A stretch of DNA of 64,000 nucleotides from a virus (IMGVR_UViG_3300029258_003221:170632-234631); one strand, 5' to 3'; shown: positions 223 to 36,363, counted from the stretch's first letter. Made by a program: numbers and translations. Notes: generated by a model not told the origin, from the sequence alone.

Positions 223-497
223 GCTTCACTCACAGGTGGGTTCCGTCTTGAGATAAGTCTCATTTCAGATATGTGGGTGTCACAAGTGACATCACCCCAC
301 CAAACCACATAACAATCGGGATCACCTTCCCGTGGTCCGTCTCCGTCAACAAAGGTCACATCAGGATTGTAATAATCAACATCGCTTCGTCTTCGGACTT
401 CGCCCAGTGTTCCCAACGGAACTTCCATGTCAGAATTAGGGTCTTCACTGACCAACCTTTGTGTGGCTTTGACGATATCGCCAATTTGGTATTGCAT
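219..497 (-). CDS. hypothetical protein, possible SH3/KOW-like barrel
   Basis: This 92-aa protein opens with QIGDIVKAT and has GTLGEV at residues 29-34. That GDxV ... GtxGxV spacing is common in small SH3-like barrels, so the fold is a guess from pattern only. An Asp-Thr pair near residue 73 is encoded by GACACC, one of the recurring GGGTGTC sites (275-281). It sits 2 bp from the next upstream gene and overlaps the downstream start by 4 bp. Function unknown. Confidence 0.7.
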   Translation of the reverse strand: MQYQIGDIVKATQRLVSEDPNSDMEVPLGTLGEVRRRSDVDYYNPDVTFVDGDGPREGDPDCYVVWWGDVTCDTHISEMRLISRRNPPVSEA

Positions 498-499
498 AT

Positions 500-736
500 T
501 TATCCCTCTGCTGGAAAACCCTGAGCCAACAAAACTTCAGCTACTTTTTTAGAGATCCTCAAGCCTTTGGATTCACCATCATGGTAAACGACATTAAGTC
601 GGCAACCATTGAATCCGGGCGGGAGACCCACTGTCACATGCTGCATTTTTGGAAGAATGCGAACGCCATCTGTGTGACAGGCATGTTCTGAGCTTGTTGA
701 AGGGAGGTTTTCATTCGGTTCAAACATTTGAAACAT
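500..736 (-). CDS. hypothetical protein, 78 aa
   Basis: This is a small soluble protein with no recognised family; its C-terminus (GLRISKKVAEVLLAQGF) looks like a short basic helix. The ATG at 736 has GGAG 8 bases upstream. A GGGTGTC site (759-765) lies between this gene and the stop of the upstream gene, so that copy is not coding. Confidence 0.65.
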   Translation of the reverse strand: MFQMFEPNENLPSTSSEHACHTDGVRILPKMQHVTVGLPPGFNGCRLNVVYHDGESKGLRISKKVAEVLLAQGFPAEG

Positions 737-771
737 TTTTACTTCTCCAAAGGTAGAAGGGTGTCAAGAAA

Positions 772-1311
772 TTAAATTGCTACTTTGTCCCACCATTGAA
801 CATAAGTGCCATCAAGCATAGCGTTCCAGTCACGCCATGCAGCAGGATCAATTCTTTTGGACCATGCCATGCTTTCAGGTCCAGTTTTGAGAAAAGCCCG
901 GTACTTGGCGTAATTGTACTTCTCCTGTGCCAATTCCTCAACAGTTTTGTTGAGTGCTTTTTTGGCACCCTGTACTGAGATTGTGCAGGCCCGACTTTTC
1001 CAATTTGGATCAGCAAGATTGGTTTTAGATAATTCGATTTCTCGTTCAGCACGTTCAACAAAGTAATGCCAGACCTTTGCTTTATCGGCAGCTTGCTTAT
1101 CTGCTTCGGCAATTGCTTCACGAACTGTTCGGAATGCACCGATTGTTGACATTCCTTCACGGAGGACACAACGCTGATCTTCAGTCAGATGCCAGAGTTT
1201 ACGTTTGTCAGATAGTTTCGGTGTAATGATCGTGAAGTTTTCACATTCACTACGTCGAATGACGATCTCACAATTCTTTGTTTTCTCTTTCGCAGGCTGA
1301 CTGAATTTCAT
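772..1311 (-). CDS. hypothetical protein, 179 aa, helical and basic
   Basis: A Lys/Arg- and Glu-rich protein, probably mostly helical in its central part (residues 60-140), with a Trp-rich C-terminus (WRDWNAML, YVQWWDK). The start ATG at 1311 is preceded by GGAG at the end of the structured gap 1312-1435. No domain recognised and no membrane segment. A phage-specific accessory protein is the most that can be said. Confidence 0.7.
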   Translation of the reverse strand: MKFSQPAKEKTKNCEIVIRRSECENFTIITPKLSDKRKLWHLTEDQRCVLREGMSTIGAFRTVREAIAEADKQAADKAKVWHYFVERAEREIELSKTNLADPNWKSRACTISVQGAKKALNKTVEELAQEKYNYAKYRAFLKTGPESMAWSKRIDPAAWRDWNAMLDGTYVQWWDKVAI

Positions 1312-1339
1312 GTCAAAAGTTCTCCATTTGTTGCCAAGG

Positions 1340-1436
1340 GACCGGGTGCGAGCCGGACTGACTTCCCTACTCCCCCCCTGTCTGGGGGAGAGTCATCCCT
1401 ACCATAGTCAGCAATGGTCGCACTAAGGAAGCGGTC
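1340..1436 (-). ncRNA. candidate structured RNA A
   Basis: The gap 1312-1435 is GC-rich and self-complementary. On the minus strand GACCG/CGGTC closes the element (1432-1436 with 1340-1344). Inside are GTGCGA/TCGCAC, CTGACT/AGTCAG and a terminal hairpin CTCCCCC-agaca-GGGGGGGAG. No U-tract follows, so it is not a simple terminator. The outer helix overlaps the TAG stop of the upstream gene. Function unknown; it could be an intercistronic RNA structure or processing site. Confidence 0.45.
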
Positions 1437-1651
1437 TATGCCTCATTCTCAGTGCTTAGGGTTTGTATCTTTTTCTGAATAGCTTCAACCACCTGATCCA
1501 TTGTTGGTGGAAGTGAGTCTTTGTGTTTTGTTGTTATGAAGGTGTCCACAGATGCAACCCATGTCTTCACAGTCCAACCTCCGGTTTGACCATCAGCTCG
1601 AAAGTGAACATCACCCACATTATCTCGTATCCAATCAGAGTGTTTCATCAC
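1436..1651 (-). CDS. hypothetical protein, 71 aa
   Basis: A small protein with Trp residues in its first half and a helical C-terminus. It ends in TAG, an uncommon stop in this window, right at the edge of structured RNA A. If TAG were read through, the frame would continue across the RNA region (one further TAG) to a TGA 3 bp before the next ATG. It overlaps the upstream gene by 4 bp (ATGA). GACACC at 1541-1546 encodes Asp-Thr. No family recognised. Confidence 0.65.
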   Translation of the reverse strand: MMKHSDWIRDNVGDVHFRADGQTGGWTVKTWVASVDTFITTKHKDSLPPTMDQVVEAIQKKIQTLSTENEA

Positions 1652-1995
1652 TTTGCCTCTGGTTTCAAAATCACTTCAAAGTGCTTCAGAACATCTTTCA
1701 CCTTTTCAGGTGTCAAACCTGTCTTCTCAGCGACTTTGTTGATTCTTTTGTCATGAATTTCATTTAGGCTATTCATGTAGCCTTCATCAATGATGGTTTC
1801 AACATCAATGTCTTCTCCACCATATTCAGTTGGATGGTGAACAGAAGATGAATTCATCCACTGTTGAACTCCAGCATCACAAAGTGTTTTACCCATATTC
1901 AGACAACCCTCACGAGTGCAAGGGAATACCAGCTCAGGTTCACCACAATGGATTTTACCATCTTCAACGTCAAGGTAAGAAAACATATCACTCAT
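1648..1995 (-). CDS. hypothetical protein, 115 aa
   Basis: An acidic protein with two cysteines close together near residue 30 (CTREGCLNMG), which could be a half metal site. Its ATG lies exactly three codons behind, and in phase with, the TAG stop of the upstream gene (2005-2007). The spacing suits TAGGA acting as the Shine-Dalgarno sequence. A GGTGTC copy at 1709 lies out of the Asp-Thr frame. Function unknown. Confidence 0.7.
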   Translation of the reverse strand: MSDMFSYLDVEDGKIHCGEPELVFPCTREGCLNMGKTLCDAGVQQWMNSSSVHHPTEYGGEDIDVETIIDEGYMNSLNEIHDKRINKVAEKTGLTPEKVKDVLKHFEVILKPEAK

Positions 1996-2004
1996 ATCAC
2001 TATC

Positions 2005-2562
2005 CTAATCCCGTGTTTGTTCTGAGACATATACGTGGGCACGTCGCCCAACGATGATGCGTTCGTTCTTTCCCGGAAATCTCAACGGAGGATGTGTTTC
2101 GTGAAAGATGAACTGCTTGTCATGATCTATCAGGTGTCCTTGAGGAAGTTCAGGGAACTTCGGTCCACGACCTTTAACAAGGGCAATGTCCCCCTGTCGC
2201 TGAACGATGTTGTTTGCTCGACCATTCCAAATCCATTGAAGAGCCGAAAACACTTGTCTACAATCAGAGGGAACACAATGTGAAAAGTAAGTCCCTGCCT
2301 CGTTTCTCCCAACGAGAAATACAGACTGTGAATGGTGAGGGCCGAACTTATAACTTCTGGCATAAATCCTCTTGCGATGAACGGCAATGAGACCTAACCC
2401 TGCGCCGCCCATATCACAAAATGGTGCCGACTCCGCTTTCTTGGGGGCAACAAAGTCAAGAGCCTTGGTTGTGTGATAATCACCCTTTGCACTTCCATGT
2501 TCATCATAGAATTGTTCTGCAAGACGAGCCAGCTTTAGTGTCCGTTGAACAGCAGTTGCCAT
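2005..2562 (-). CDS. hypothetical protein, 185 aa
   Basis: A basic soluble protein of unknown family, with an N-terminal helix (TLKLARLAEQFYDEHG) and many His and Gly residues. It ends in TAG, and the TAGGAT doubles as the ribosome site of the next gene, which lies in the same frame. Suppression of this TAG would give a fusion of about 300 residues. No RBS is obvious before the ATG at 2562 beyond a weak AGGAAAT. Confidence 0.7.
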   Translation of the reverse strand: MATAVQRTLKLARLAEQFYDEHGSAKGDYHTTKALDFVAPKKAESAPFCDMGGAGLGLIAVHRKRIYARSYKFGPHHSQSVFLVGRNEAGTYFSHCVPSDCRQVFSALQWIWNGRANNIVQRQGDIALVKGRGPKFPELPQGHLIDHDKQFIFHETHPPLRFPGKNERIIVGRRAHVYVSEQTRD

Positions 2563-2612
2563 GATATTTCCTTAGACAAAAATTTTGATTAGTCACTGAA
2601 TGATGATTTCCA

Positions 2613-2849
2613 TCATTCTCTTGACAAAATGAGATCCGTTCCATCATCCACCAATACGGTGTCTTTGCCATACTTAGCTTGGAGTCGTTCTTTAACTTCA
2701 TCAAAGTCTAAGTGAACACACATCTCTGCGGTAAATCCACCAGTGTAGCCAGTAACGAACTGGTATTTCCCATTGTTTCTGTAGTCAGGAGTAATCCGGG
2801 TCAATTCGCCGCCGAATAGACGGTCCATCGTGAGTTGTCTTTCACTCAT
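2613..2849 (-). CDS. hypothetical protein, 78 aa
   Basis: The start is taken at MSERQLTM (ATG at 2849), directly after the stop of the upstream gene at 2851; the longer open frame upstream is a shadow of that gene. The C-terminal half (VKERLQAKYGKDTVLVDDG) suggests an alpha/beta fold. GACACC at 2658 encodes Asp-Thr. No family recognised. Confidence 0.65.
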   Translation of the reverse strand: MSERQLTMDRLFGGELTRITPDYRNNGKYQFVTGYTGGFTAEMCVHLDFDEVKERLQAKYGKDTVLVDDGTDLILSRE

Positions 2850-2850
2850 A

Positions 2851-3438
2851 TCACTCTCCAAGAATGAGCATTTTGTTGTCGATAGGAATAAATCCGGGAA
2901 TACCAACATCTTCAGCAACCCACCTGTAAATGGGTTCTGCCAGATTTCCCAGATGGTGAAGAGGCTGACTGGCAATCCAGCCAACACGTTGAGCACACAG
3001 GGTGTCATCATCTGTTTCAAACACAGACTGACAGTATGCTTTAACTGGCCCTTCAGGCAGCTTGTATTGATTTTGTTCCGGTGCGTGTGGTGGTGGAGGG
3101 AGCATGAATACTTCTTTCAGCCTATTACTTCCAAAGTCGTAGTTGGTATTGTTGGCTGTGTCCACAAAGATGTAGGGTTCAACATCCTCAAAGACCCATC
3201 GTGTAGGATCAACAAGGGTGTCCCCATCGATGATCCAACCATGATGATGAAACTCAAACCTGCCAAATCGGGAAGTTGGAGCAATCGGCCCACAATACTG
3301 ACCATAGACTGCCTTGCCGGGAATCAACTTGTGTTTGACCAGTTGACAGGCAATGCCGTAGCAATTGCCTGCCCACTCATCTAATGGCCAGCCGATAAAC
3401 TCAGCAGCTTTAGCTGGATTCAATGGGTGCTTTGACAT
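2851..3438 (-). CDS. hypothetical protein, possible NlpC/toxin-like fold
   Basis: This 195-aa protein has WAGNCYGIACQLV near residue 22 and a FHHHGWIIDGDTLVDPTRWVFED stretch near 70. A Cys followed by a His-rich strand and Asp recalls papain-like or transglutaminase-type folds seen in phage and polymorphic-toxin proteins, but no catalytic triad can be proved by eye. Two GGGTGTC sites (3000, 3216) both encode Asp-Thr. It sits tightly between its neighbours. Confidence 0.65.
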   Translation of the reverse strand: MSKHPLNPAKAAEFIGWPLDEWAGNCYGIACQLVKHKLIPGKAVYGQYCGPIAPTSRFGRFEFHHHGWIIDGDTLVDPTRWVFEDVEPYIFVDTANNTNYDFGSNRLKEVFMLPPPPHAPEQNQYKLPEGPVKAYCQSVFETDDDTLCAQRVGWIASQPLHHLGNLAEPIYRWVAEDVGIPGFIPIDNKMLILGE

Positions 3439-3441
3439 AAC

Positions 3442-3624
3442 TCAGATTCCATCTTCTTTTAGAGTTTCGTAATCTTTTCGCAAATTTTCTGCGTCTGTTT
3501 CAAAACCGTTTTTCAACGATGGAACTTTGAACTTGCGTCTTTGTTTTGGAGGAAACAACGTAAATGTTGCCATGCCCTCCATAATCGAAGCCATGCCTTT
3601 GAGGATGAACCGAAACCAATTCAT
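3442..3624 (-). CDS. hypothetical protein, 60 aa
   Basis: A short basic protein with an amphipathic N-terminus (MNWFRFILKGMASIMEGM) and a charged C-terminus. The ATG at 3624 overlaps the stop of the upstream gene as ATGA, which supports it as a real small gene. The first 20 residues could lie along a membrane. Function unknown. Confidence 0.55.
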   Translation of the reverse strand: MNWFRFILKGMASIMEGMATFTLFPPKQRRKFKVPSLKNGFETDAENLRKDYETLKEDGI

Positions 3625-4208
3625 GCAATTGCCTTGCCGTCATGAAGTTGTTGAACATGAGCAGCAAATCGGAACTGATAATCATCAACCTGAATCAGAA
3701 CCAGATCAGCCGGGTTTTCAGCACTGTCGGCACAATACTTTTCACCCAAACAAAGTTCAGCATACTTTTCAGCAACTTGTTCGTCGTTCAACTTAGTGAT
3801 ATTGGGAATGAAAGAATCCAATTTTCCACAACGAACAACCTCAAGAGTGTTCTGTGGATCGTTGACAAGAACATCTCGCCAAAACTCAACCAACTCTGTT
3901 TTTGCCTGAGTAAGTGTGAGGATCTTGGTGTTTTTGAAGGATCGTCTTTCCTGAGCTTTCAGGAATTCATCCCAATTGTCGTAGTCTTCCAGTTCGATCT
4001 GGAAGGGGCCATCCCAGTCACGTATCCACTGAGGGGTGCAACCTTCGTTACGAAGAGCATTACGCCGCTCATGTTCTTCGTGAAAATCGAAGTCGATAAC
4101 ATTGACTGGCACAGACCAGATCAGGCATCTGTCGCCACCGGGGGAGACAATAGCCTTGTTTTCGGTCTCCCATGCTTGGGGAATGAATCGAAGTCGGATG
4201 GTGTTCAT
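3621..4208 (-). CDS. hypothetical protein, 195 aa
   Basis: An acidic soluble protein, rich in Asp, Glu and Trp in its first 100 residues, followed by a helical region. AAAGGA lies about 9 bases before the ATG at 4208. A GGGTGTC copy (4253-4259) lies in the intergenic space before this gene, so it is under no coding constraint. No family recognised. Confidence 0.7.
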   Translation of the reverse strand: MNTIRLRFIPQAWETENKAIVSPGGDRCLIWSVPVNVIDFDFHEEHERRNALRNEGCTPQWIRDWDGPFQIELEDYDNWDEFLKAQERRSFKNTKILTLTQAKTELVEFWRDVLVNDPQNTLEVVRCGKLDSFIPNITKLNDEQVAEKYAELCLGEKYCADSAENPADLVLIQVDDYQFRFAAHVQQLHDGKAIA

Positions 4209-4260
4209 GTTAATTTATCCTTTTGATAAAAGTGATTCGATGTTTGTTAGATGGGTGTCA

Positions 4261-4533
4261 TCAATAGTCGCTGGGCATCAAAATCGTAGTCACGCTTCGA
4301 TCCCATTCTGTGATGATCCATAGAGTGCCACCACTGGTATCAAAAGATGACATGACACGTGACCCATTTTCAAGAGCAGCATCGTTTAGCTTGATATCGC
4401 CTGTACTTTGATTGCCCCAATCACCAGCAAAATGACGATTGAGAAGTTCCCTTCCATCAATGCTGTGTTCTTCCATGAAGTCAACAGCATTGGATGTTGC
4501 CACAGTTTGTTCGGATGTGAATTTTGGAATCAT
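4261..4533 (-). CDS. hypothetical protein, 90 aa
   Basis: A small soluble protein whose second half (LNDAALENGSRVMSSFDTSG) looks like beta strands. Its ATG overlaps the TGA of a possible 19-codon gene upstream. The stop at 4261 is followed at once by the non-coding GGGTGTC copy. Function unknown. Confidence 0.6.
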   Translation of the reverse strand: MIPKFTSEQTVATSNAVDFMEEHSIDGRELLNRHFAGDWGNQSTGDIKLNDAALENGSRVMSSFDTSGGTLWIITEWDRSVTTILMPSDY

Positions 4534-4589
4534 GCTGCTTTTTCCGCTGCTTTAGTTCTTTCAAGTCGGTGAAAAACTTTGATGTGCAT
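4530..4589 (-). CDS. possible 19-aa leader or microprotein
   Basis: The 57-bp space between two genes is filled by ATG-MHIKVFHRLERTKAAEKAA-TGA. It begins 1 bp after the upstream stop and ends in an ATGA overlap with the next start. The fit to the tight packing style suggests a translated coupling peptide, but 19 codons can occur by chance. Confidence 0.3.
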   Translation of the reverse strand: MHIKVFHRLERTKAAEKAA

Positions 4590-4590
4590 T

Positions 4591-4848
4591 TTAGTTCACC
4601 AAAATAGCGTTACAGAAATTGAGAGCAACTCGTTGTTGGGTGTCCGTTTCCGGTGCATGGTAGTCAACAACAAGAAATTCATCCTTGCCATCAAACTCTG
4701 GTCCTTTGACCTTGCAGACCTTTGGTGCAATGCTGGTGACTTTACCAACCATACCGGGCTGGAACACGATTTTGGGAGTGATCCCATAACCGCTGTAATA
4801 TCCTTCCACGGGCAGCTTGCATGTCACTTTGTCACCAACACCAATCAT
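4591..4848 (-). CDS. hypothetical protein, possible SH3/KOW-like barrel
   Basis: This 85-aa protein begins MIGVGDKVTCKL and has FQPGMVGKVTSI near residue 29, the GDxV ... PGxxGxV layout of small SH3-like barrels; compare the gene at 219-497. The start overlaps the upstream TAA (TAATG). GACACC at 4638 encodes Asp-Thr. The role is unknown. Confidence 0.65.
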   Translation of the reverse strand: MIGVGDKVTCKLPVEGYYSGYGITPKIVFQPGMVGKVTSIAPKVCKVKGPEFDGKDEFLVVDYHAPETDTQQRVALNFCNAILVN

Positions 4849-5351
4849 TATTCTGCCTTTATCAAAGTTTTGATGTCATCGGGAACGTGCTGGATTTCTT
4901 CATCAATCCAAACAGACAATGACCATTCAGGCATTGTCGCTTTCACGTATTCTTCATAGGTGTCGTAACTGTTCGTTTTAGGCTTTGTTTCACCAACACC
5001 ATCATCGATGATTCTGGCATCAAAATGAACAGCCAGTGGTTCCCTTAGCTCACGTTCAACCCACCATAGAAAATTCCAGTTGTGACCATGCTGGAATTCA
5101 ATACAGGGCATCTCTGTGTAATCCTCAGCTTCCTGATATTCTTCATCAGGATTGAATGTCTTGCCTGTCCAGAACTGGAGAGCGATATGCTGTTCCAGCT
5201 TGTGTCGGAGGGTCCAGATTGTATAGGTTGGTTTCTCGTGACGAACCAACATGAATTGAGGGAACTTCTTACGAACGATGCCCTCGATGAATGAGTGAAT
5301 TTCATCATCAGAGGGCATCGTTTTTGGAATCACAGCAGCAAGATTTGCCAT
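4848..5351 (-). CDS. hypothetical protein, 167 aa
   Basis: A soluble acidic protein with several aromatic pairs (FLWW, WTLRHK) and an N-terminal helix after PSDDEIHSFIEGIV. It starts 1 bp after the upstream stop. AGGTGTC at 4958 encodes Asp-Thr. No family recognised. Confidence 0.7.
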   Translation of the reverse strand: MANLAAVIPKTMPSDDEIHSFIEGIVRKKFPQFMLVRHEKPTYTIWTLRHKLEQHIALQFWTGKTFNPDEEYQEAEDYTEMPCIEFQHGHNWNFLWWVERELREPLAVHFDARIIDDGVGETKPKTNSYDTYEEYVKATMPEWSLSVWIDEEIQHVPDDIKTLIKAE

Positions 5352-6119
5352 TTAGATATTCAGATCGAAGCCTGAAAACTCCTCAGAGTAAACTTCGTTT
5401 CCGTCCTTTCCTTCTTTTTCCTGTTCGGCGAGATACTGATCTCGTGCCCAGATGACGAACCAACTCTGAGCAATATCGGTCAGTCTCATCTCAAAGTAGT
5501 TCTCACCGTCGATGACAAAACTCACCAGTCGCTTTTTGACCTTAGCAATTCGTTCATCATCAACGAACTCATTACCTTTCATCTGGGTGTCAACAACTTG
5601 TTCCAAGGTGTTCTTGACGGCTTCTCGGAACTCTTCGTTATCGCCGTAATCACGGTCGTGACAAGCATTGTGAACAACCTGACCTGCCAATGGCAAAGAA
5701 TCCAACAGGTCACCATAACCATCGTCACCTTTGTCCTCGACCACATTAAACAGAGGCTTGTACAAAGCTCGTTTGTAATGCTCCCATGTCTTAGCGAAGC
5801 GAAGTGCTTCATCAAAGGTGTAGGGGCATTCTTCGTAGCGATAGCCGCCTCTGGAATCCCAGACCTGAACCTTGCCAGCAGCACTCTGCACTCGGAAAAA
5901 CTCTGAGATAGCATCCTTTGCTGCATCCTGTCGGGTGATTCGTTCGACAACGAGCGGTCGGAAATACTTCTCAAGGATTTCCCAAAACCGATCACCATCC
6001 AACACAGGCAGTTCTTCCATGTAGTGGCGAAAGGCTTTACCAAACTTGGCACCGACACGGTTGTATTCCAGTGCCAGTTCCTGTGCATCGATTGTTTCCA
6101 TATCAAACAGTTTGGTCAT
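5352..6119 (-). CDS. hypothetical protein, 255 aa, helical
   Basis: An acidic, largely helical protein without membrane segments or a recognised domain. The central part carries a HNACHDRDYGDN stretch (about residue 150) rich in possible metal ligands. It overlaps the downstream gene region by 17 bp at its start. GGGTGTC at 5585 encodes Asp-Thr. Confidence 0.7.
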   Translation of the reverse strand: MTKLFDMETIDAQELALEYNRVGAKFGKAFRHYMEELPVLDGDRFWEILEKYFRPLVVERITRQDAAKDAISEFFRVQSAAGKVQVWDSRGGYRYEECPYTFDEALRFAKTWEHYKRALYKPLFNVVEDKGDDGYGDLLDSLPLAGQVVHNACHDRDYGDNEEFREAVKNTLEQVVDTQMKGNEFVDDERIAKVKKRLVSFVIDGENYFEMRLTDIAQSWFVIWARDQYLAEQEKEGKDGNEVYSEEFSGFDLNI

Positions 6120-7071: not shown

Positions 7072-7097
7072 ACAAGCCTCGCTTTTCATTTTCCATG

Positions 7098-8451: not shown

Positions 8452-8458
8452 GTACGCA

Positions 8459-15237: not shown

Positions 15238-15288
15238 GTTGTACTCCTTGTGAGAATTAAGTCATCAAGATCCATTAAATGGGTGTCT

Positions 15289-17117: not shown

Positions 17118-17855
17118 TTACGATTCTTCATCAGGTGTCTCATTTGGACCTTCCAGCTTCCCCTGATCATCGACATGAGGAAGCAGGAATTGCTCCAACT
17201 GATCTTTCAGGGCCTCAAGACCGAGTGCTTCAACCTTGCTGGTAAAGAACCCTTCAACCTCACCTTTTGCTTCAGTTACAGTTCGATCAATCGCCTCATT
17301 GAACTGACTCTGAATGAAAGGAACAGTTGATCGCAGCTTAGAGACAACAGCACCAACCATTCTGCGAAGTTCTTCTTTGTCTGCCTTCTTGATGGTGCCT
17401 TTTCGCTCCAGCAATTCAGCAATCTGAACCTCAAGTTCCATGGCCTGTTGTGTTGCTTCCTTAACGGTTGCGTCAAACTCGTCCTCGAATTTCTTACGCT
17501 GATTGGTGTCAGGACAATCATCAATCTTTTCACCATTCAGCCGATGAATGGTGCAGGGGATTCCATCTCCCATGTTGGGAGAGGTAATCAGGTCAATCAA
17601 CTGAGTGCCACTGATCAGCACTTCAATGTGAGGGTTCCGTTCGCCATAGTACCTGTCACTATTGAGATTTCGATACTTTGATGCAGGACGAATGGTCAGG
17701 CTGAAGACATTGGAGTGAGGAATAGACGATCCGAAAAGAATCGTTCCACCGGGATGAGTCTGGCGATTCAGACCGATCATCCCATAACATGGATGAGTCT
17801 CTTTAACACCCAACACATCAGCGTCTTCCTGAACCGGATCAATCTTGTTCGCCAT
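17118..17855 (-). CDS. hypothetical protein, 245 aa, C-terminal coiled coil
   Basis: The start is MANKIDPVQEDADV (17855), 17 bp inside the upstream stop. The N-terminal 110 residues look beta-rich with a HPGGTILFGSS turn; residues 130-230 are helical and charged (ATQQAMELEVQIAELLERKG). Two GGTGTC copies lie in it (17133, 17514). It is translated with the five-repeat protein upstream, so the two may work together. Confidence 0.65.
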   Translation of the reverse strand: MANKIDPVQEDADVLGVKETHPCYGMIGLNRQTHPGGTILFGSSIPHSNVFSLTIRPASKYRNLNSDRYYGERNPHIEVLISGTQLIDLITSPNMGDGIPCTIHRLNGEKIDDCPDTNQRKKFEDEFDATVKEATQQAMELEVQIAELLERKGTIKKADKEELRRMVGAVVSKLRSTVPFIQSQFNEAIDRTVTEAKGEVEGFFTSKVEALGLEALKDQLEQFLLPHVDDQGKLEGPNETPDEES

Positions 17856-24643: not shown

Positions 24644-24999
24644 TTAGCTTTCAAGGGATCTTTGTACTGCTCCGGGAGTCAGTTGATCGGAATTGGAATC
24701 GAGTACCAGTCCCTCAGTGTACCCGAATGGAAATTTGTGTTGGGTGTCCTTGATGACAAAAAGATGATACTGATTTGAAGTGTCAACTACCCGACTTTGT
24801 GCCGGGTACAATTCAACAGCTTCATTCTCTTCGCCAATCAACTCATTCTTGATTTTCATCATATGCCGCCAATCATGTCGTGGATGACGATCCATTGACT
24901 TAATTGACAACCACCACATTTCAGGCCAACCCTCCGAGATCGGCTGAAGAACACTGGCACACCGTTTGAACACTCCGTAGAGACCATTTTCATCTAATT
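24644..24999 (-). pseudogene. 3' part of DUF7694-like gene split by the IS element
   Basis: The frame is open from the IS junction to a stop at 24644 and has no good own start (only a GTG at 24973). It reads LDENGLYGVFKRC, then MWWLSIKSMDRHPRHDW, KNELIGEENEAVELYPAQSR and DTSNQYHLFV, the conserved core of DUF7694 phage proteins (from memory). Joining it to 26398-26523 across the shared TAATT restores one frame (DDVEYCQ-LDENGLYG) of about 160 residues. It may still be translated from the GTG. Confidence 0.8.
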
Positions 25000-26402
25000 T
25001 GCGGGCAGGAAACCCCTACGGCGAAGCCGCTAGGTTGCAAAGCGAGTGAGCGTAGCGAACGAGACTGCAACCTAGCCTCTTTAGGGTAGTGGGAGGAATG
25101 CCCGCCTCCAAAATAATTAGGACAAAATTGAAATAATTTACGGCAAAATCTGTTTCTACCTACTCTATATAAGAGTGGTATATGAAACAGATAAGAACCG
25201 TTAAACTGCAATTGAAAGTTGATAGCACAATGTTCAAGCCAACGCTTGAGGCATACACCAATGCTTTCAACTATGTATGTCAAACTGCTTGGGACAACCA
25301 AGAGTTTAACGGAGTTCGTCTGCACCACCTGACCTATCACCAAGTCCGTCAAAATACAGGACTTAAAAGCCAACTTGCCATTTCTGCCAGAGTCAAAGCA
25401 ACTGAAGCACTTGCGGCAGTCCAAGCAAGAAAGAAGAAAGGAAAGAAAGTTTCCTGTCCTCAAAGTAAATGCTCGGCAATTCGCTATGATGACCGAAGTT
25501 TGACGATTGACTTTGCTAAACGAACCATCAACATCTTGACGCTGGACGGCAGAGTCAGACTTCCCATCTTTGTTCCCAAATACTTTGAGCAATATCTTAC
25601 TTGGAAACGCTGTTCGGCAGACCTTTTCCAAGTCAAAGGTAAAACATTTTTGCATATTGTATTTGAGAAAGAAACCGAAGATGTTGTGCCTAACGGGAAG
25701 TTCGTGGGGATTGATCGTGGCATTAAAAAGATTGCTGTGGTTAGTGATAATAGGTTCTTCGGTGGTAGAAGAATTAAACAATTGAGTGAACGATATGAGA
25801 GGTTGAGGGGACAACTTCAAAGCAAGAAGTCCCGATCCGCAAAAAGACACTTGGCTAAAATCAGTCGAAGCGAACGGCTTATGCGGAAGGACATCAACCA
25901 TTGCATTACCAAACAAATTGTTGAAGGTCTTGAAGAAGGAACAACCATTGTTCTTGAAAAACTGACTGGTATTCGTGGTGGAGCAAGGAAACTTAACCAA
26001 GAACAAAGACTTGAAGGTAAAAAAACTTTGCGAAAACCACAACGCAAGGAAGTGAACAAGTGGAACTTCTTTCAGTTTGAGCAATTCCTTGCTTACAAAG
26101 CGATGGCTAAGAATTGCCAAGTTGTGTTTGTTGACGCACGATACACCAGCCAACGCTGTAGCAAGTGCGGACACATACACAAAGGCAATCGCCATAAGCA
26201 AAGTAAGTTCAAGTGCAGGAATTGTGGTTTCCAACTGAATGCAGACCTCAACGCTAGTAAAAATATCGTACTCAAATATCTGGACGCTACAAGCTATCCA
26301 GATTGGGCAACTGTCAATTTGCCTAACGGCGGCTTAACGGCTGCTAATGTTCCCGCTTAAAGTGGTGCAACAAGCCCCGCCGTCTTTAGCGGCGGGGTAA
26401 TT
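25000..26402 (+). mobile_element. IS200/IS605-family element with tnpB only
   Basis: The element is bounded by TAATT at 24995-24999 and at 26398-26402; boundaries are ambiguous within these five bases. The left end (25001-25105) folds as GCGGGCA/TGCCCGC with an inner CTAGGTTGCA/TGCAACCTAG. The right end has CCCCGCCG-tctttag-CGGCGGGG (26375-26397). Such subterminal hairpins, lack of inverted terminal repeats and of target duplication are typical of IS200/IS605. There is no tnpA, so it depends on a transposase elsewhere. It has none of the GGTGTC copies that mark the surrounding DNA, which suggests a late arrival. Confidence 0.88.
25182..26360 (+). CDS. tnpB: TnpB RNA-guided nuclease
   Basis: A 392-aa TnpB of usual length. 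The RuvC residues are in place: D178 in GKFVGIDRGIK, E259 in IVLEKLTG and D355 in NADLNAS. The zinc ribbon is CSKCGH ... CRNCGF (C326, C329, C345, C348). It should therefore be an active nuclease guided by an omega RNA made from the right end of the element; the guide would be copied from the flank after 26402. It is transcribed opposite to nearly all genes here. A 414-codon frame on the other strand is only its shadow. Confidence 0.93.
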   Translation: MKQIRTVKLQLKVDSTMFKPTLEAYTNAFNYVCQTAWDNQEFNGVRLHHLTYHQVRQNTGLKSQLAISARVKATEALAAVQARKKKGKKVSCPQSKCSAIRYDDRSLTIDFAKRTINILTLDGRVRLPIFVPKYFEQYLTWKRCSADLFQVKGKTFLHIVFEKETEDVVPNGKFVGIDRGIKKIAVVSDNRFFGGRRIKQLSERYERLRGQLQSKKSRSAKRHLAKISRSERLMRKDINHCITKQIVEGLEEGTTIVLEKLTGIRGGARKLNQEQRLEGKKTLRKPQRKEVNKWNFFQFEQFLAYKAMAKNCQVVFVDARYTSQRCSKCGHIHKGNRHKQSKFKCRNCGFQLNADLNASKNIVLKYLDATSYPDWATVNLPNGGLTAANVPA

Positions 26403-28107: not shown

Positions 28108-28206
28108 GCAAAACTCACTAAGATTTTCACCAAGAAGACATAAGTTGTAATTCTACAAGAACTTACAGGAGTAAGAATTCTTAGTGATTTTCTCTTGTGT
28201 TAGATT

Positions 28207-29906: not shown

Positions 29907-30262
29907 TATGATACCTCTTTTAACTCCGACCAATCAATACCCAAAAGTGCAAAGTTCTGAGTATTGTTTTGATTGTAATCCAAATACAAACGAGCAGCTT
30001 TCATCATGAAGACTTGAAGTCCGATCAAATCCACTGGATCATCACCGAAAACTTCTACTTCAACTGGTGCTACAAACTTACGAGGTGTCCCATTTGGATT
30101 GATGATTTCTTTTAAATCGATAGTTCTTGGATCTGAAATGAGCATTGCGTCGTCTTCATTCATAGACCAACCATGACCAGTCCAAAACTCATTTTCATTT
30201 GCTGCAAGAATGAATCGACGATGCTGCAAACTTCCTTTAGGGACCAAAGACAGTGATTTCAT
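29906..30262 (-). CDS. hypothetical protein, 118 aa
   Basis: A soluble protein, beta then alpha (HRRFILAANENEFWTGHGWS; LQVFMMKAARLYLDYNQN). It resembles small phage proteins of unknown role. Coupled at both ends by ATGA. AGGTGTC at 30083 is read Gly-Thr-Pro. Confidence 0.65.
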   Translation of the reverse strand: MKSLSLVPKGSLQHRRFILAANENEFWTGHGWSMNEDDAMLISDPRTIDLKEIINPNGTPRKFVAPVEVEVFGDDPVDLIGLQVFMMKAARLYLDYNQNNTQNFALLGIDWSELKEVS

Positions 30263-31761
30263 ATGTTGTTCCTTCTTTCAAATCTTGATGCGAAACCATG
30301 GAATTTCTCTGGTTGGTCGAGTGCCAGACGCTTGAGCTTAGCTCCCAGAGAGCAACACTCCTCGTGAAAATCATCTGTTGCATGATTTTTCACCTTGTCA
30401 TGTGCAAGCTCATGAATAATAAGCCCGTCAAGACGAGGCGTGAAGCCTTCTTCAAAGAACTTGTTGCCCATGGTGAACTTGTTGTAGTCCAGCACATTAT
30501 CGCCATAACAGGCAATCCATGATCTGCCAACAAAACTATGACACATCACAAACCGAACAATGATACCATGGTCCAGCAATTCTGAACCCAACCATCGAGT
30601 GTATTCCTCGATTAAACCCATAGCAGGTGTCCACTTTTCCCTTGGGATCACTTCCACTGGGGTTGCATTTGGGTCATCACTGTACGCTCCTTTGCCCTCC
30701 ATGGGAAAAGCCTGAGAACTGCTGAAAAGGGCACCTGCCATCTTGGCATTAGCTCGCTGACCTTTTGTCAGTCCATGTGACGAAATCATATTGTATCCAG
30801 CCGTAATGGCTGCACCGTTTGCATCCGGGTTAGTTGGGTCAATCGATACCCTCTTAGGCCCAAACCGTTTAGTCATAAACGAATGTGTGGCCTCATCTGA
30901 ACACCGTTCATCACTGGACGCTTCATTGACCCAAGCTTCAGTGGTATCATCCTGTTCAATTTTTTCATGCATTTCATTGAGCACATGAGTACGAACAGCT
31001 TTAAGATAAGAAGGGGTCACATTGTCACGATCTACATTCAGAGGAACTTTCTGCTGAATGCTGTAATGCCATTTATCCCCAGTTTCTACAACCGGAATAC
31101 CCAATTCATAGAGACTCGGCACCTCATCAGGAAGAACATCAAAAATCTGAATTTCACACTTTCGTGCAGATGTACGAAGATCTTCACCGATCTCAGTGAA
31201 AAGAGTTTGCTCAAAAGTGTGAATTGGCTTTCTGCCTTTGATTTCATCACCATTAACAAACAGTTTTAGACCGGGACGAACAATGATTTTGTTCATGTAC
31301 TCAATAAGTTCAGTGTACTGCTGACGAGTACATTCCATGAGTGCCCAGAACTCTGTTCCATTGTCTCGCTTCCGACGAGGGTATTCATGTCGCCCTTCAT
31401 CATTGAATTCAACTGTGCCGCTTGTTGTGTGAACACGAGCTTCTTTGCAGAAAGCCAGAGCCATCTTACAGCCGACATTGAACCGACCAGCTTTAGTAGG
31501 ATCATCTTTCTTCTCAGATGGAGCATAGACTGTCCAAGCATGAGACAGATCAGTGTAACCCGGACCATTGTCAATGACGCTGATTTCAATCAATGGCTTT
31601 CCGGGGATTATCGCCACCTTGATATGACATTCAGTTGCCTCTGTGTCCATGACGTTTTGATAAAGTTCTGCCCCGATGATCCCAAAAGAACGTCTTTCAA
31701 CGAGTCGCTTGGCGACCATACGAAGACCATCTTTGTGTGCCGTAAACCAATTCTTACTCAT
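30259..31761 (-). CDS. GHKL ATPase with C-terminal HExxH region
   Basis: A 500-aa protein. The N-terminal half has the Bergerat fold motifs: N box ELYQNVMDTEA (E32, N36), G1 box VIDNGPGY (D64, G66, G68) and G2-like AGRFNVGCKMALAF (92-105), as in Hsp90, MutL and histidine kinases. Near the end, LIIHELAHDKVKNHA gives H450-E451-xx-H454 and H460, the HExxHxxxxxH spacing of zinc peptidases, though the usual Gly is missing. An ATP-driven conformational part is thus joined to a possible protease or zinc site. Start MSKNWFTAHK overlaps the upstream stop by 8 bp. Confidence 0.8.
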   Translation of the reverse strand: MSKNWFTAHKDGLRMVAKRLVERRSFGIIGAELYQNVMDTEATECHIKVAIIPGKPLIEISVIDNGPGYTDLSHAWTVYAPSEKKDDPTKAGRFNVGCKMALAFCKEARVHTTSGTVEFNDEGRHEYPRRKRDNGTEFWALMECTRQQYTELIEYMNKIIVRPGLKLFVNGDEIKGRKPIHTFEQTLFTEIGEDLRTSARKCEIQIFDVLPDEVPSLYELGIPVVETGDKWHYSIQQKVPLNVDRDNVTPSYLKAVRTHVLNEMHEKIEQDDTTEAWVNEASSDERCSDEATHSFMTKRFGPKRVSIDPTNPDANGAAITAGYNMISSHGLTKGQRANAKMAGALFSSSQAFPMEGKGAYSDDPNATPVEVIPREKWTPAMGLIEEYTRWLGSELLDHGIIVRFVMCHSFVGRSWIACYGDNVLDYNKFTMGNKFFEEGFTPRLDGLIIHELAHDKVKNHATDDFHEECCSLGAKLKRLALDQPEKFHGFASRFERRNNI

Positions 31762-32134
31762 TTTCAATCCTTTTCCAATCATCTGGACCTAATGCCTTGA
31801 TTTCTTCAAGCAGTGTCAACACTTGTTCGTTGACGCTTTTGTAACATCCGGTGTCATGTTTCCACTCAAAGATACACATTCCATACACTGTGGAACAATG
31901 ACCTTCCTCATCAATTGAACCTATGACATATGGATGAATCTTAATTGATCCGACATACAAAATATCATAGGGTTCTCCGATACACAGCATCAATCTTTTA
32001 ATGTATCTCAGAGCGTCCATGACCACATCATTCAATTCATCAGAATTTGTGGCGTAGAGCTGATCAAATGATCTCCCACGAAGCCCCATATCTGTTTGAT
32101 GCACAGCCTCAACGCTGAGTTCGTATGTGTTCAT
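31754..32134 (-). CDS. hypothetical protein, 126 aa
   Basis: A soluble acidic protein with an alpha/beta pattern (ALRYIKRLMLCIGEPYDILY). It precedes and overlaps the GHKL gene. A GGGTGTC copy lies between its start and the upstream TAG. No family recognised. Confidence 0.65.
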   Translation of the reverse strand: MNTYELSVEAVHQTDMGLRGRSFDQLYATNSDELNDVVMDALRYIKRLMLCIGEPYDILYVGSIKIHPYVIGSIDEEGHCSTVYGMCIFEWKHDTGCYKSVNEQVLTLLEEIKALGPDDWKRIENE

Positions 32135-32145
32135 TATTGGGTGTC

Positions 32146-32814
32146 CTAAACAGTTTCAGCTAAACAGATCGAAAACCCTTCGTAACAGTATCCATTCCGA
32201 CCTTCCAAAAAGACCTTGGCACCATGGTAGTCCTGATCAGACAGGATGCGTTCTAACTCTTCTTCCTGTCTCATACTTTCCCTGTGTGAAGCTAATTTTT
32301 GGCGGTAATCACCCCACTGCTCTTCCACAGTCTTCTTGAGATGAGGATCATCCTCAAATTCATCTGGCCTGTGTTTTGGTTGCTCTGGTTCTTCGCTATA
32401 AGATTCGTAGTACCCTTCTTCTTTTCTCTCCTGAATTACTTTCAAGCAAGCACGACCAATATGCTCAGTGGTGTTCGCTGCAAAGTATCGTTCGCCATGT
32501 TTTTCTCGCAGAACGATAATGTACTGTCGATGCAAAGCCGAAACCAAATTGTCCCACTTCTTCTGAGAGAGAACCAACTTATCATCTGTAAGCGGATCTT
32601 TATTAGAAGATTGAAAATTAAGGAGTGAAGGGACAGGAACACATATGCGTACCCACTTGTCTGCTATTGGACAAAATTGCTCAAGCTTAAACCGACGAAC
32701 GTGATGTTTGTTATGTCGAACGTATGGATCAATTTCAACAAGACGAAACTTACCACTTTGATTTTCATTAAATTCACTGATCGTCATTCCAGCACTCCTA
32801 AAGGCATTCGCCAA
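32146..32814 (-). CDS. hypothetical protein, 222 aa
   Basis: A basic N-terminal part (RHNKHHVRRFKLEQF) and a charged helical C-terminal part (QKLASHRESMRQEEELERIL). MTISEFNENQ at 32787 is an alternative start. It ends in TAG, where TAGGAC begins the next gene's ribosome site. No family recognised. Confidence 0.65.
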   Translation of the reverse strand: MANAFRSAGMTISEFNENQSGKFRLVEIDPYVRHNKHHVRRFKLEQFCPIADKWVRICVPVPSLLNFQSSNKDPLTDDKLVLSQKKWDNLVSALHRQYIIVLREKHGERYFAANTTEHIGRACLKVIQERKEEGYYESYSEEPEQPKHRPDEFEDDPHLKKTVEEQWGDYRQKLASHRESMRQEEELERILSDQDYHGAKVFLEGRNGYCYEGFSICLAETV

Positions 32815-32840
32815 TTTACTTCGATTTCATTGGGTGTCCT

Positions 32841-32867
32841 AAAAGAAGGGGCAGGTTTCCCTGCCCC
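32841..32867 (-). terminator. intrinsic terminator after RuvB-like gene
   Basis: On the minus strand GGGGCAGG-GAAA-CCTGCCCC with a stable GAAA loop is followed by TTCTTTT. It sits 6 bp after the stop of the AAA+ gene. Confidence 0.88.
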
Positions 32868-32872
32868 TTAAA

Positions 32873-34033
32873 TCATGCAGAATGTTTGGCGTATCGCCGC
32901 TCATCCATATATTCTGCTGTCACCTGATCACCGGCATGTTCAATGCCACGTCGATCCAGTTCGGCAAGCCCCGCTCTTGTTAGTGTGATACCACGACTGG
33001 TAGATACAACATACGGACCATTGCCTGCAACAGACATCAATGGAGGCAGAATCACACGCTCTAACGCCTCTGCCTTACAGTTTGCCACTCTTTGGAGATT
33101 ATCCTTGGAGATTGGACGACTGCCCAATGCTTCAAGAATCTTGACTTCTCGACGGTCCATGCCGAACTCATCAAGTCCCAGATTGTCAGCAACGATTCTG
33201 GCAGCAGTCTGCCAATCATTGCCGTGCTGATTTTTAGTCATCTCCATAAGTCGAGCGAAATCCTTCGCCAAACGAGGAACAATTCGATATTTGGCAACTG
33301 CGTTACACGCTTCTTCGGAGAAGTGCGGGTAATTAAGCTTGATGATCTGAGCGATCTCTTTCTTACCAGCAGGTTGCCATCTCAAAGTTGTACCCAATCG
33401 CTGTGCGAAAGCATCGAACAACTTACCTTCCTCAGTGGTAGCACCGACCCAACAAATTTCTCGGCAGTCCACTTTGAAAGTTCTAGTTTTCTTTCCTGTG
33501 CCGGTCGTGATCTTCATCCAACCGTCACCATACTCCATGCCGTTCAGAAGACCACCCTGCATGAGTGATTTACTTAAAGCATGTGCCTCATCAAAGAACA
33601 GAATACACGGAGGAATCTGATACTCATCTTTGGCAACTTCAACGATCTTGATGCCCTTCTTAGCAAAGGTTTCACAGATCAATTGAAACAAGTTGTAGGT
33701 GCTGGAAAGAGCATCCGCCTGTACAAAGACAAACGGAATACCAATAGTTTCGGCAAACTGCCGAACAATAAAAGTCTTACCTTGGCCAGATGTCGCATAA
33801 ATTGCAAATGACATCCCACGACAACTGTGATTCGGAAGACCAAATGCGTTGAATGCAAATGTCTTGAGGGTGCTCATATTACCCTCATTTTCCTTACTCA
33901 CAATTACTTTGTTGAGTGGACATTTTGGATGAGCCAAGGCTTCACGGATTTCTTCATCAGTTGGCCTATCTGGAAAGCCGCCCGGATTGAAGAACTGAAT
34001 TTGAAGCTGCTTAGCATATTTTTTCATTAACAT
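32873..34033 (-). CDS. RuvB-like AAA+ ATPase
   Basis: A 386-aa AAA+ protein. Walker A is TSGQGKTF (81-88), Walker B ILFFDEAH (144-151), and sensor 1 lies in WVGATTEEGKL. The C-terminal 100 residues (GMDRREVKILEALGSRPISK ... ERVILPPLM ... STSRGITLT) match the winged helix of RuvB. RuvB drives branch migration of Holliday junctions. No RuvA or RuvC is seen in this window. The start MLMKKYAKQL at 34033 is preferred over a TTG at 34081. Confidence 0.82.
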   Translation of the reverse strand: MLMKKYAKQLQIQFFNPGGFPDRPTDEEIREALAHPKCPLNKVIVSKENEGNMSTLKTFAFNAFGLPNHSCRGMSFAIYATSGQGKTFIVRQFAETIGIPFVFVQADALSSTYNLFQLICETFAKKGIKIVEVAKDEYQIPPCILFFDEAHALSKSLMQGGLLNGMEYGDGWMKITTGTGKKTRTFKVDCREICWVGATTEEGKLFDAFAQRLGTTLRWQPAGKKEIAQIIKLNYPHFSEEACNAVAKYRIVPRLAKDFARLMEMTKNQHGNDWQTAARIVADNLGLDEFGMDRREVKILEALGSRPISKDNLQRVANCKAEALERVILPPLMSVAGNGPYVVSTSRGITLTRAGLAELDRRGIEHAGDQVTAEYMDERRYAKHSA

Positions 34034-34089
34034 CCCTTTCTGTCGTTGAAACTTTCTTGTTACGACTTTGATGGGTGTCAACTATAGAT

Positions 34090-34965
34090 TTAGGCCACTT
34101 TCTCCTTAGCAAACACGTCTTTCACTTTTTTCAGTGCTCGATCATAGGCGTAAGTTGATGCCATGCGGCTCACAGAATGCTTCTTGGATACTTCTGATTT
34201 TTTGCCGCCACCCAGAACAGTATAAAGAACATCACGCTCCAGTTCTGACAAACCGACTTCTTCAATCACAGCTCGGACCTGATCGATTTCCATGGTCACT
34301 TCGCCATCGAAACTGCTGTAACTGTAACTTGATACAAAATCTTCCCAAGCTACCTCTGGCCCATCAACTGCCACGGCTAACGCTGAAAAGCATTCTTCAC
34401 GATCAGAATCATTGATCTCCAGTTTATTTGCGGCCTGCTCAAAAGAAAGACCTTTAGACATAAGGTCTCGCAGATCTGGGAGCATACGAAGAATTCGTTT
34501 TTTGACGCTTGAAAGGAAATGATCAGTGCGAATGTAATCGATCATTCGATTCCGAATGGCATTACAGGAATATGTATCAAATTTCGCATTGCCGCTATAG
34601 GCAAACATCGAATCGGAGATTGCCCAAATCCCCTCTTGAATGAAATCTTCAATATCGACAGCACGATGACGTAATCTGTGTGCTTTGTAGAAAGGCAGAA
34701 CAATACCGGGCACAAGGCGACAATAACCCTGAAGGACAGGATACTCAATTTCTTTGACAGAGTCCATCGTCTGTTTGACGTAATCTGTCAAAGTCTGAAG
34801 AGTTCCATTGTGATATCTACGCCGAAACTCTTTGATAGAGGGATTTTCGGTGTCAAATTCTTTTTCTGCCGCCGCACGAATAATTGGCTGTGCGTCAGCC
34901 ATAATTGAAGAATATTTCTGTTCTTCTTCTTCTGAGAGAGTACGAGGTTTAATACACCCAATCAT
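34090..34965 (-). CDS. sigma-70 family RNA polymerase sigma factor
   Basis: A 291-aa protein. Region 2 is clear: VDIEDFIQEGIWAISDSMFA, then AKFDTYSCNAIRNRMIDYIR, for core binding and -10 recognition. Region 4 is LSELERDVLYTVLGGGKKSE followed by a helix-turn-helix (SVSRMASTYAYDRALKKV). Region 1.1 is absent, as in alternative sigma factors. It may read the GCTTTACA/TAGAAT promoters of this genome, though these also fit a host housekeeping factor. Start MIGCIKPRTL (34965) or ATG at 34983. Confidence 0.85.
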   Translation of the reverse strand: MIGCIKPRTLSEEEEQKYSSIMADAQPIIRAAAEKEFDTENPSIKEFRRRYHNGTLQTLTDYVKQTMDSVKEIEYPVLQGYCRLVPGIVLPFYKAHRLRHRAVDIEDFIQEGIWAISDSMFAYSGNAKFDTYSCNAIRNRMIDYIRTDHFLSSVKKRILRMLPDLRDLMSKGLSFEQAANKLEINDSDREECFSALAVAVDGPEVAWEDFVSSYSYSSFDGEVTMEIDQVRAVIEEVGLSELERDVLYTVLGGGKKSEVSKKHSVSRMASTYAYDRALKKVKDVFAKEKVA

Positions 34966-35113
34966 GAGGAGATTCCCTTTCATCGATTACGGAAGTTATT
35001 TTCTTGATGGGTGTCTGACATGACAAACGCTGGCCATGTTCACATGGATCACCACATTCATAGAAAACTGTCTTCGAGTCGATTTACAGGGTGTCCTCTT
35101 TTGCACCAAATAG

Positions 35114-35152
35114 AAAAAGCCGCCAACCAGTTTCCCAGTAGACGACTTTTTC
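35114..35152 (-). terminator. intrinsic terminator after parB-like gene
   Basis: On the minus strand AGTCGTC ... GGCGGCT (7 bp with two G-T pairs, extended by AAAA/TTTT) is followed by TTTTT. The space from here to 34984 holds two GGGTGTC copies (35009, 35089) and a Cys-rich open frame without a start codon that was not called. Confidence 0.7.
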
Positions 35153-35169
35153 TCGGGGTGACGTTCCCT

Positions 35170-36363
35170 TTATTTCTTACGAACCCGAAGAGTTTTCGCT
35201 TCTTCCGCCTGAATCCTTTTTTCGGATTCTTCGCAAGCCTGTTCATACGTGATGTTCATACAGGCTGCCACACCTTTGCGGAATTCAGCATTGTCTTCAT
35301 CTGTCTGGTCGAACAATTTTTGCATTTCCTTGAGCGGAATCGGTTTCGCACGAGTTGATTGGCGTGCAGTTGATTCGCTGTAATGCTGCTCACCCAGAGC
35401 TTTTCGTGTAGCAGCAGTTAAGGTCATGCGACCAGATTCCAAATCAGCCCGGTCTTTATCTGTAAGACCAGTTGCTGGTTTGATGACTTCACCTGTTTCT
35501 TCGTCGATCCTTGCTTCTTTTCGAGGACGAAGCAGAGCCTCACGGTTTCTGACCGTGCCTTTCTTCTTCTGTCCGGGATAAAGATACTCAGCAATTTCTG
35601 TTAGGGTCCACTTCTTACCAGAAGCAGGATTGATTCTGGATCGGAAGTTTTTGTAGATCGCCGCTTCCTGAAGAGCAGTCAATCGTTTGTTGCTGAGATT
35701 TTCTTCGACTGAAATCAGGAAGCCTTCATCATCATTCACCTGTTTATTGGTGGCGATGACTTCTGCTGGATAAATTTTGGCACCTTCAACTTCATCCGCA
35801 ACATCAACACGACTTTTTGCGTGGTTGTACAAAGTTGCTGATGTTCGTCGATTTCCTGCCAACAGAGTGAAGTTGTAATTACCATCACTCAGTTTATTGC
35901 CTTTACGCACCATTACCGGATGGAACTGCCCATAACGGGCAAGACGACGTGCAAATGCAACAATAGATGAAGCAGGTGGGGTCACCTGTTTGGAATCTTC
36001 GTCCTCTACCGTTGCCACGTCCAGTTCCATTGGCTCACATTCATGTGTTTCAAACAGACTGACAACTTGTCGAACCACTTCAATGTCTTCTGACAGAGCC
36101 ATGTGGATCAGTGAATGTTCTTTGTCTGAAGAATCAACCAGCTTGTAACCAAGAGCAAACAGATTTTCTGGTTCATTCCGACAGTTATCCACTGCTGTGA
36201 TTCTTGACAGTGGAATCGTCCAATGGTCAATTTTGACCTGCTTGGCCTTTGGACGATTGTCAGATTTCTTTGTTCTTGTCTTAGCTGGCTTCTTCGTTTC
36301 GTCAGCTTGTTGGGTGTCAACAACTGTTTCTTCAGCAGGAGCTTCAGCGGTTTCGGCAGCCAT
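35170..36363 (-). CDS. ParB/Srx-like protein, 397 aa
   Basis: Start MAAETAEAPAEETVV (36363), with an Ala/Lys-rich flexible N-terminus. The ParB-type nuclease/CTPase fold shows as ARYGQFHPVMVRK, then FTLLAGNRRTSATLY (GxRR motif, about residues 155-175). A helical ParB-like middle follows (SVEENLSNKRLTALQEAAIY, LTEIAEYLYPG, a helix-turn-helix). Such proteins segregate plasmids or act as phage DNA-binding or nuclease proteins; no ParA is seen nearby. It has its own promoter and terminator. Confidence 0.78.
   Translation of the reverse strand: MAAETAEAPAEETVVDTQQADETKKPAKTRTKKSDNRPKAKQVKIDHWTIPLSRITAVDNCRNEPENLFALGYKLVDSSDKEHSLIHMALSEDIEVVRQVVSLFETHECEPMELDVATVEDEDSKQVTPPASSIVAFARRLARYGQFHPVMVRKGNKLSDGNYNFTLLAGNRRTSATLYNHAKSRVDVADEVEGAKIYPAEVIATNKQVNDDEGFLISVEENLSNKRLTALQEAAIYKNFRSRINPASGKKWTLTEIAEYLYPGQKKKGTVRNREALLRPRKEARIDEETGEVIKPATGLTDKDRADLESGRMTLTAATRKALGEQHYSESTARQSTRAKPIPLKEMQKLFDQTDEDNAEFRKGVAACMNITYEQACEESEKRIQAEEAKTLRVRKK

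Follow-up and report, generated by a model that had tools for sequence, protein, structure and literature searches.

A strand-biased motif in an array of small genes

Why should a short word, GGTGTC, recur about once every 650 b on one strand of a viral DNA, in any reading frame and almost without its complement? The question was raised by the window analysed here, a stretch of 64,000 nucleotides corresponding to positions 170,632-234,631 of its parent IMG/VR virus contig (G000; 234,631 b). Over the window GGTGTC occurred 62 times on the plus strand and once on the minus strand, and positions 1-36,318 held 55 and 0 copies, against 8.1, 7.1 and 12.0 expected under Markov models of order 1, 2 and 3. 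The original prediction was therefore right about the number of copies (about 55 in the first 36.3 kb, although it expected 5-6 where we obtain about 7-12), the mean spacing over 1-36,318 and the near-absence of the complement (GACACC on the plus strand of this part: 0 observed vs 6.8 expected). Its reading of the coding copies, in all three frames with Asp-Thr the commonest, also agrees with ours (window copies in frames 0, 1 and 2: 31, 5 and 12, GAC-ACC being the most frequent), as does the lack of copies in the TnpB insertion (24,990-26,400, plus strand). Nine copies had been placed between genes; copies do lie there, but they number 14 by our own gene calls, which were made with our own script and give approximate gene starts. 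The heptamer GGGTGTC, proposed as the recurring unit, does recur (36 plus and 0 minus in the window, 34 of them in 1-36,318) but is not universal, as the full heptamer makes up only about 60% of the copies.

The feature is present at 275-36,318, as predicted, but these coordinates cut it off. In the whole contig GGGTGTC was found 118 times forward and never in reverse, with an abrupt onset at G000 128,842 and only three copies to the left of 128.8 kb. From about 15 per 5 kb at the onset, the densest part with one motif per ~270 b, the density declines until, near 207 kb, about 3 remain per 5 kb. Chance would give much less even spacing than that seen at 128-165 kb (CV 0.38-0.42). Since a second contig, G020, crosses the same onset with identical spacing, the onset is not an error of a single assembly, although both contigs possibly represent one population. 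The window holds just the tail of this array (275-36,318; 55 GGTGTC on the plus strand), and the remainder extends leftwards to G000 128.8 kb. Between 128.8 and 207 kb lie about 160 small genes, all on the minus strand, and the motif is always on their sense strand, so that its sense form is GACACC(C). Whether the motif follows gene direction, a check that had been proposed, can thus be answered with yes.

The excess does not stem from codon or dipeptide usage

With Asp-Thr as the commonest reading, the motif might be a by-product of codon or dipeptide usage. The null model here was the shuffling of synonymous codons within the G000 array genes. Sense copies in frames 0, 1 and 2 numbered 72, 13 and 31, against 12.7, 4.1 and 7.1 in the shuffles, and antisense copies 0 against 8.9. 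Of the 123 Asp-Thr pairs in these genes, 72 were written GAC-ACC where 13 were expected, so the excess holds given the Asp-Thr count. Genic copies in G000 were five times as frequent as expected (103 vs 21.5), and intergenic copies across the array also exceeded expectation (54 vs 3.7). With an excess in the other frames and between genes, and no antisense copies at all, a by-product of coding is ruled out by the shuffles and has, in our judgement, practically no chance of being correct. The original claim of selection on DNA or RNA instead of protein was upheld.

A longer element, spelled differently in related phages

GACACC proved to be the core of a longer pattern. Its sense reading, (T)GACACCC-A-C-TAA-C....(C)AT-CAACAAC, leads into a Shine-Dalgarno sequence and ATG; the positions conserved are +6, +9 to +11 and +17 to +26. 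On the coding strand of G000 the element, of ~27 nt, can be written TGACACCCACTAAC....CATCAACAAC...SD-ATG.

The G000 phage has a T4-like portal and is a member of a large huge-phage group. When its portal relatives were searched for the G000 element by exact word no excess was seen; the relatives' own elements were revealed by de novo word counts. Equivalent arrays are present in four related huge phages, each with its own spelling of the element: TGACACCG in G005, GATACCAACTA in G011 (459 kb) and the ~87%-identical G022, AGCTGTAC in W01 (LR756511, 595 kb) and AATTGTAC in G006. The arrays of G011/G022, G005 and W01 are sense-only and stop sharply; at their dense end the small genes have about one element each. 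In G000, G011 and W01 the element density is graded, and GC content climbs in parallel toward the dense end. Outside the G005 array TGACACC is depleted (2 and 1 observed vs 9.6 and 11 expected). Two arrays in W01 converge on one spot as mirror images, near a skew switch; the G011 boundary has no skew switch. In G006, AATTGTAC occurs 20 times sense and never antisense in a plus-strand block (0-55 kb), with ATTGTAC just upstream of 11 genes vs 3.1 in controls; the element is sparse in this phage, preceding ~11 of 95 genes.

Word excesses in G003, G008, G002, G015 and G006 (440 kb) were set aside, as their short regular spacings are typical of tandem coding repeats, and the G011-type word TTGATACCAACTAG was too unspecific for scanning collections. 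In the literature searched we found no account of such an element array.

Elements lie before start codons, also inside the upstream gene

A typical full intergenic element of the window (GACACCCATCTAACAAACATCGAATCAC..AAAGGATAAATTAACATG; 4,253-4,259, minus strand) lies 51 nt before a start codon, and two other intergenic elements on the same strand lie 50 nt (15,281-15,287) and 51 nt (32,832-32,838) before theirs. Exactly one element was present in 35 of 43 start-to-start intervals in G005, 25 of 36 in W01 and 101 of 159 in G000; all gene intervals within 20 kb of the boundary contained an element, as did 63-91% of those farther out. At a distance of 20-110 nt upstream of the start, an element was found for 41 of 44 genes in G005 (shifted controls 11), 28 of 37 in W01 (shifted controls 9), 24 of 105 in G011, whose GC-rich end is under-called (controls 8), and 57 of 160 in G000 (shifted controls 34). 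Within the single-element intervals of G000, the copies by decile toward the next start numbered 1, 2, 3, 9, 9, 9, 11, 19, 21 and 17, and this pile-up holds even for copies inside the upstream gene.

Where there is no gap between two genes, the copy falls within the 3' portion of the first, and the stop codon is often overlapped by the element. Homologous protein stretches that contain genic copies align straight through them (for example NEDTYN vs NDETFD), which indicates that these copies were made by substitution; insertion junctions are ruled out by the same continuity. Placement before the next start, inside the upstream gene by substitution, accounts for the frame independence and for much of the regular spacing. 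The end of an upstream gene is not required, since the array of G011, like that of G022, opens with an element placed 42-45 nt before the ATG within a divergent gap, and in W01 three copies are preceded by a gene on the opposite strand. The window encodes near the array head a conserved HATPase-like protein of 500 aa (30,259-31,761, minus strand), whose G011 homologue, 57% identical, is the first array gene and has the element before it in the divergent gap.

Elements also adjoin tRNA and tmRNA genes; in W01 a tRNA-Leu gene starts 3 nt after a degenerate element. Some G000 genes contain several internal copies.

A sigma-70 family protein is encoded with the array

Proteins with sigma-70 region 2 are encoded in all six records searched, and several of them resemble one another and, by our reading of an alignment, form a late, gp55-like family. 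A second family, which we call array sigma, has members in G000 (window 34,090-34,965, minus strand; 291 aa), G011 (266,969), G022 (127,406) and W01 (152,574). The gene sits in the array or at its head, and the lineage's element precedes the sigma gene or its operon; in the window two elements lie upstream of the sigma start codon on the minus strand, at 50 nt (35,009-35,015, sense GACACCC) and 130 nt (35,089-35,095). Besides the Pfam assignment to the sigma-70 family, a profile built from three members matched SigA/RpoD chains in the PDB from region 2 through region 4, PHROGs assigns the protein as a sigma factor, and the best Foldseek matches of its AlphaFold model (mean pLDDT 73, pTM 0.51) were sigma factors.

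Searching with this family uncovered a fifth member in G006, where AATTGTAC words lie at 1,873 and 1,934, beside the array-sigma start; the sense-only G006 element had been predicted from the proposed pairing of sigma and element and was then observed. When the collection was scanned with the sigma alignment, the matches listed all came from G011. In G005, a fragment, array sigma was not seen and only a gp55-like sigma was found. Array sigma is most likely the reader of the element.

A probable promoter signal of a phage sigma regulon

The elements are sense-only, number about one per gene, are associated with gene 5' sides, differ between lineages, and are accompanied by related sigma proteins with the element at their own gene or operon. 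From this we infer that the element is probably a promoter-type signal of a phage sigma regulon, and on this rest its promoter identity, its reading by array sigma, the use of the host polymerase and any timing of expression. The small genes of a long array, all pointing one way, would nearly all be preceded by a transcription-initiation element of ~27 nt, and the array-encoded sigma-70-family factor would recognise it and direct the host RNA polymerase to the array genes and to the sigma gene itself. Between genes that leave no gap, base substitutions would have created the element within the 3' portion of the preceding gene; this would explain the copies in all three frames. Antisense copies would be avoided because they would fire backwards, and the lineage-specific spelling would follow from sigma and promoter diverging together.

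Were this correct, the array would be a very large set of promoters of a single class for a phage, written into coding sequence and served by a dedicated sigma. It would open the regulation of hundreds of unknown huge-phage genes to study directly from sequence and provide natural sigma/promoter pairs for studies of specificity, and a route to such arrays in metagenomes.

Some observations speak against a promoter: the inverted repeats that start within elements in G011, the last elements without an array gene, the W01 tRNA-Leu 3 nt after its element, the G005 fragment with a gp55-like sigma only, the multi-copy G000 genes and the sparse G006 element.

Comparison with known systems

This kind of system is already known from phage sigma factors and PeSLs; what is new is the scale, the lineage-specific spelling, the embedding in coding DNA and the graded layout. 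The T4 late promoter used by gp55 is TATAAATA, and gp28 of SPO1 directs transcription from middle promoters. As in these cases, a phage sigma-70-family protein goes together here with a probable promoter class that differs from the host's and is found sense-only at phage genes. Array sigma is not gp55, as gp55-like factors are separate genes in the array phages, and the T4 gp55 late promoter is ruled out by the absence of TATAAATA before array genes (G000 0/136, W01 0/151, G011 0/101). The element also departs from both promoter types in its C-rich sequence in G000, its much higher density and its variation between relatives.

The promoters in PeSLs are early ones, served by the host enzyme. 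PeSLs, described in T4-like phages, unite promoter and terminator in one composite motif (Arbiol et al. 2010; Comeau et al. 2014; both as cited in PMC4503421); gene-shuffling breakpoints have been reported at PeSL cassettes (cited in PMC4503421), and PMC4503421 terms its own case host-like. As in PeSLs, a short promoter-type motif goes with a stem-loop between variable-region genes in some of the arrays, for example in the W01 order of hairpin with T-run, element and gene, and the G011/G022 alignment breakpoints are enriched at elements (below), which is compatible with a promoter role. They differ in their lineage-specific spelling, dedicated sigma, copies embedded in coding DNA and an array graded over 80 kb, and in G000 a stem-loop is usually missing from the element.

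The portions of a jumbo-phage survey that describe its 'group 2' list a gp23-type capsid, no RNA polymerase of their own and phage sigma factors, which are proposed to work with the host polymerase (PMC7824862). The array phages are similar in their T4-like portal and several sigma-like proteins, and in that no RNA polymerase of their own was found: a search for the multi-subunit phage enzyme (PF00562) gave none, and one for a single-subunit T7-type gene also gave none, its positive control being equally silent. An element array is not described in those portions of the survey (PMC7824862).

Integron arrays share with ours the small same-strand genes, a short site overlapping stop codons, a conserved boundary and, in G011, inverted repeats at the site. 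Here, however, genes point toward the boundary, copies lie inside genes, and the tyrosine recombinase PF00589 was absent from the six records (G000 and G005 being fragments) while control genomes were positive, on which ground an integron is ruled out.

The array boundary and alternative readings

An identical 16-mer, GATACCGCACCACCCT, with an AT-rich stretch after it, marks the array ends of both G005 and G011, and G000 has a related sequence. A search of IMG/VR with a combined boundary pattern, which includes the element core, matched these phages and their duplicate contigs and no others; among bacterial and archaeal genomes there was one match, by eye in an archaeal feoB-like gene, which we took as chance, and an Rfam search at the boundary returned nothing relevant. 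The last elements before the boundary have no following array gene in G011, G005 and G000. In G011 thirty elements, most of them no more than 20 kb from the boundary, pass directly into perfect inverted repeats that vary in sequence. Many of these repeats start inside the element (AACTAGGGG..CCCCTAGTT), an arrangement suggesting that a portion of the element is itself present in the RNA or acts as a DNA hairpin. Hairpins lie upstream of the element in W01, downstream in G011 and G005, and are rare in G000.

The inverted repeats and the gene-less last elements leave room for a role in RNA or one like that of gene cassettes. GACACC(C) and its counterparts might be read in the nascent transcript as a 5'-leader signal for antitermination or pausing, processing or translation, a possibility already raised as an RNA-level mark, which stays live as an alternative but is unlikely and not the reading we favour. 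The sense-only, 5'-associated placement would fit it, as would the G011 hairpins that would form in RNA, the last elements without a gene, and the neighbouring tRNA and tmRNA genes; yet a cleavage site is not expected to be enriched within genes, as the element is in G000 (103 vs 21.5), the accompanying hairpin is absent as a rule in G000, W01 has none besides the upstream ones, and a dedicated sigma accompanies the array. We rate as rather improbable that the elements are recombination linkers or cassette boundaries (PeSL-like or integron-like), at which genes are swapped or added with the newest at the sharp end. The sharp, conserved boundary, the parallel rise of density and GC content toward it, the frequent overlap with stop codons and the few boundary-near genes with homologues point that way, together with the G011/G022 alignment breakpoints, of which 8 of 48 in a small sample lay within 25 nt of an element vs 2.5 expected (p 0.002). 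Against it stand the genic copies inside continuous homology, the failure to find a tyrosine recombinase, and the single element type per phage despite genes shared between phages; such a role would also be compatible with a promoter rather than replace it.

The two DNA-level functions of the original prediction fared worse. For a Chi-like, KOPS-like or packaging polarity site acting from the boundary one can cite the strict polarity relative to that boundary, the density gradient and the mirror-image W01 arrays about one point near a skew switch. But in every array the element follows gene direction, at about one copy per gene on the 5' side, is tied to starts and stops and has a long conserved context, the G011 boundary lacks a skew switch, and neither Chi nor KOPS needs one copy per gene, which makes such a site very unlikely; a Chi site in the sense of an oriented site independent of gene direction and starts is ruled out, since the element follows both. 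A T7-type primase start is more improbable still: GTGTC is a T7-type primase site, and a fork moving away from the boundary would have the plus strand as its lagging template, but GATACCAACTA, AGCTGTAC and AATTGTAC occupy the same places in relatives, and a primase has no need of a position on the 5' side of genes, before start codons.

A more speculative proposal, possible though doubtful, is that the array is a one-ended zone of gene accretion. Small foreign genes would join at the conserved boundary (GATACCGCACCACCCT..TTATA), each fitted with a sigma-specific promoter or linker; the gradients of density, GC and conservation would record gene age over 80-100 kb, and the sigma/element pair would diverge between lineages like lock and key. 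The conserved boundary and the parallel gradients raise the question of where huge phages acquire genes, and few of the genes near the boundary have homologues in relatives.

Conserved sequence and base composition at the array boundary

Where the arrays of small one-directional genes carrying the element end sharply, we found a conserved sequence, GATACCGCACCACCCT..TTATA, located in G000 at contig position 128,757, to the left of the window, and in the related huge phages G005 and G011 at positions 17,518 and 358,835, respectively. The 16-mer at this boundary is exact between G005 and G011, two phages with widely different genome GC (0.58 and 0.35), and within IMG/VR the boundary sequence was confined to these phages.

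GC content is highest at the array boundary and declines steadily with distance from it, both overall and in GC3 and intergenic DNA (G000, contig 128-234 kb; G011, 260-359 kb; the related phage LR756511, 0-105 kb). In LR756511 the cumulative skew reaches its maxima at 18.7 kb (AT skew) and 30.9 kb (GC skew), close to where the two arrays of elements in this phage meet.

Inverted repeats, RNA genes and protein genes

In G011, thirty perfect inverted repeats (305,544-358,677) immediately follow an element; their stems differ in sequence, many having the base AACTAG..CTAGTT, and a T-rich tail follows 9 of the 30.

Within the G000 array lies a short tmRNA-like gene (contig 134,420-134,560, minus strand; Rfam RF00023, 53.7 bits), with an element immediately 3' of it. 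G000 also encodes a tRNA with a CTA anticodon, of the amber suppressor type (contig 5,677-5,751, plus strand), called by ARAGORN as tRNA-Pyl; stop codons may possibly be recoded.

Among the minus-strand protein genes of G000, those for the portal (contig 46,804-49,329) and an actin-like Volactin (68,676-70,673) contain intein domains. Also on the minus strand, the window encodes a phage protein that has both a PARP catalytic domain and a WGR domain (window 48,157-49,809), as well as two adjoining SPASM/radical-SAM proteins (window 55,607-58,520).
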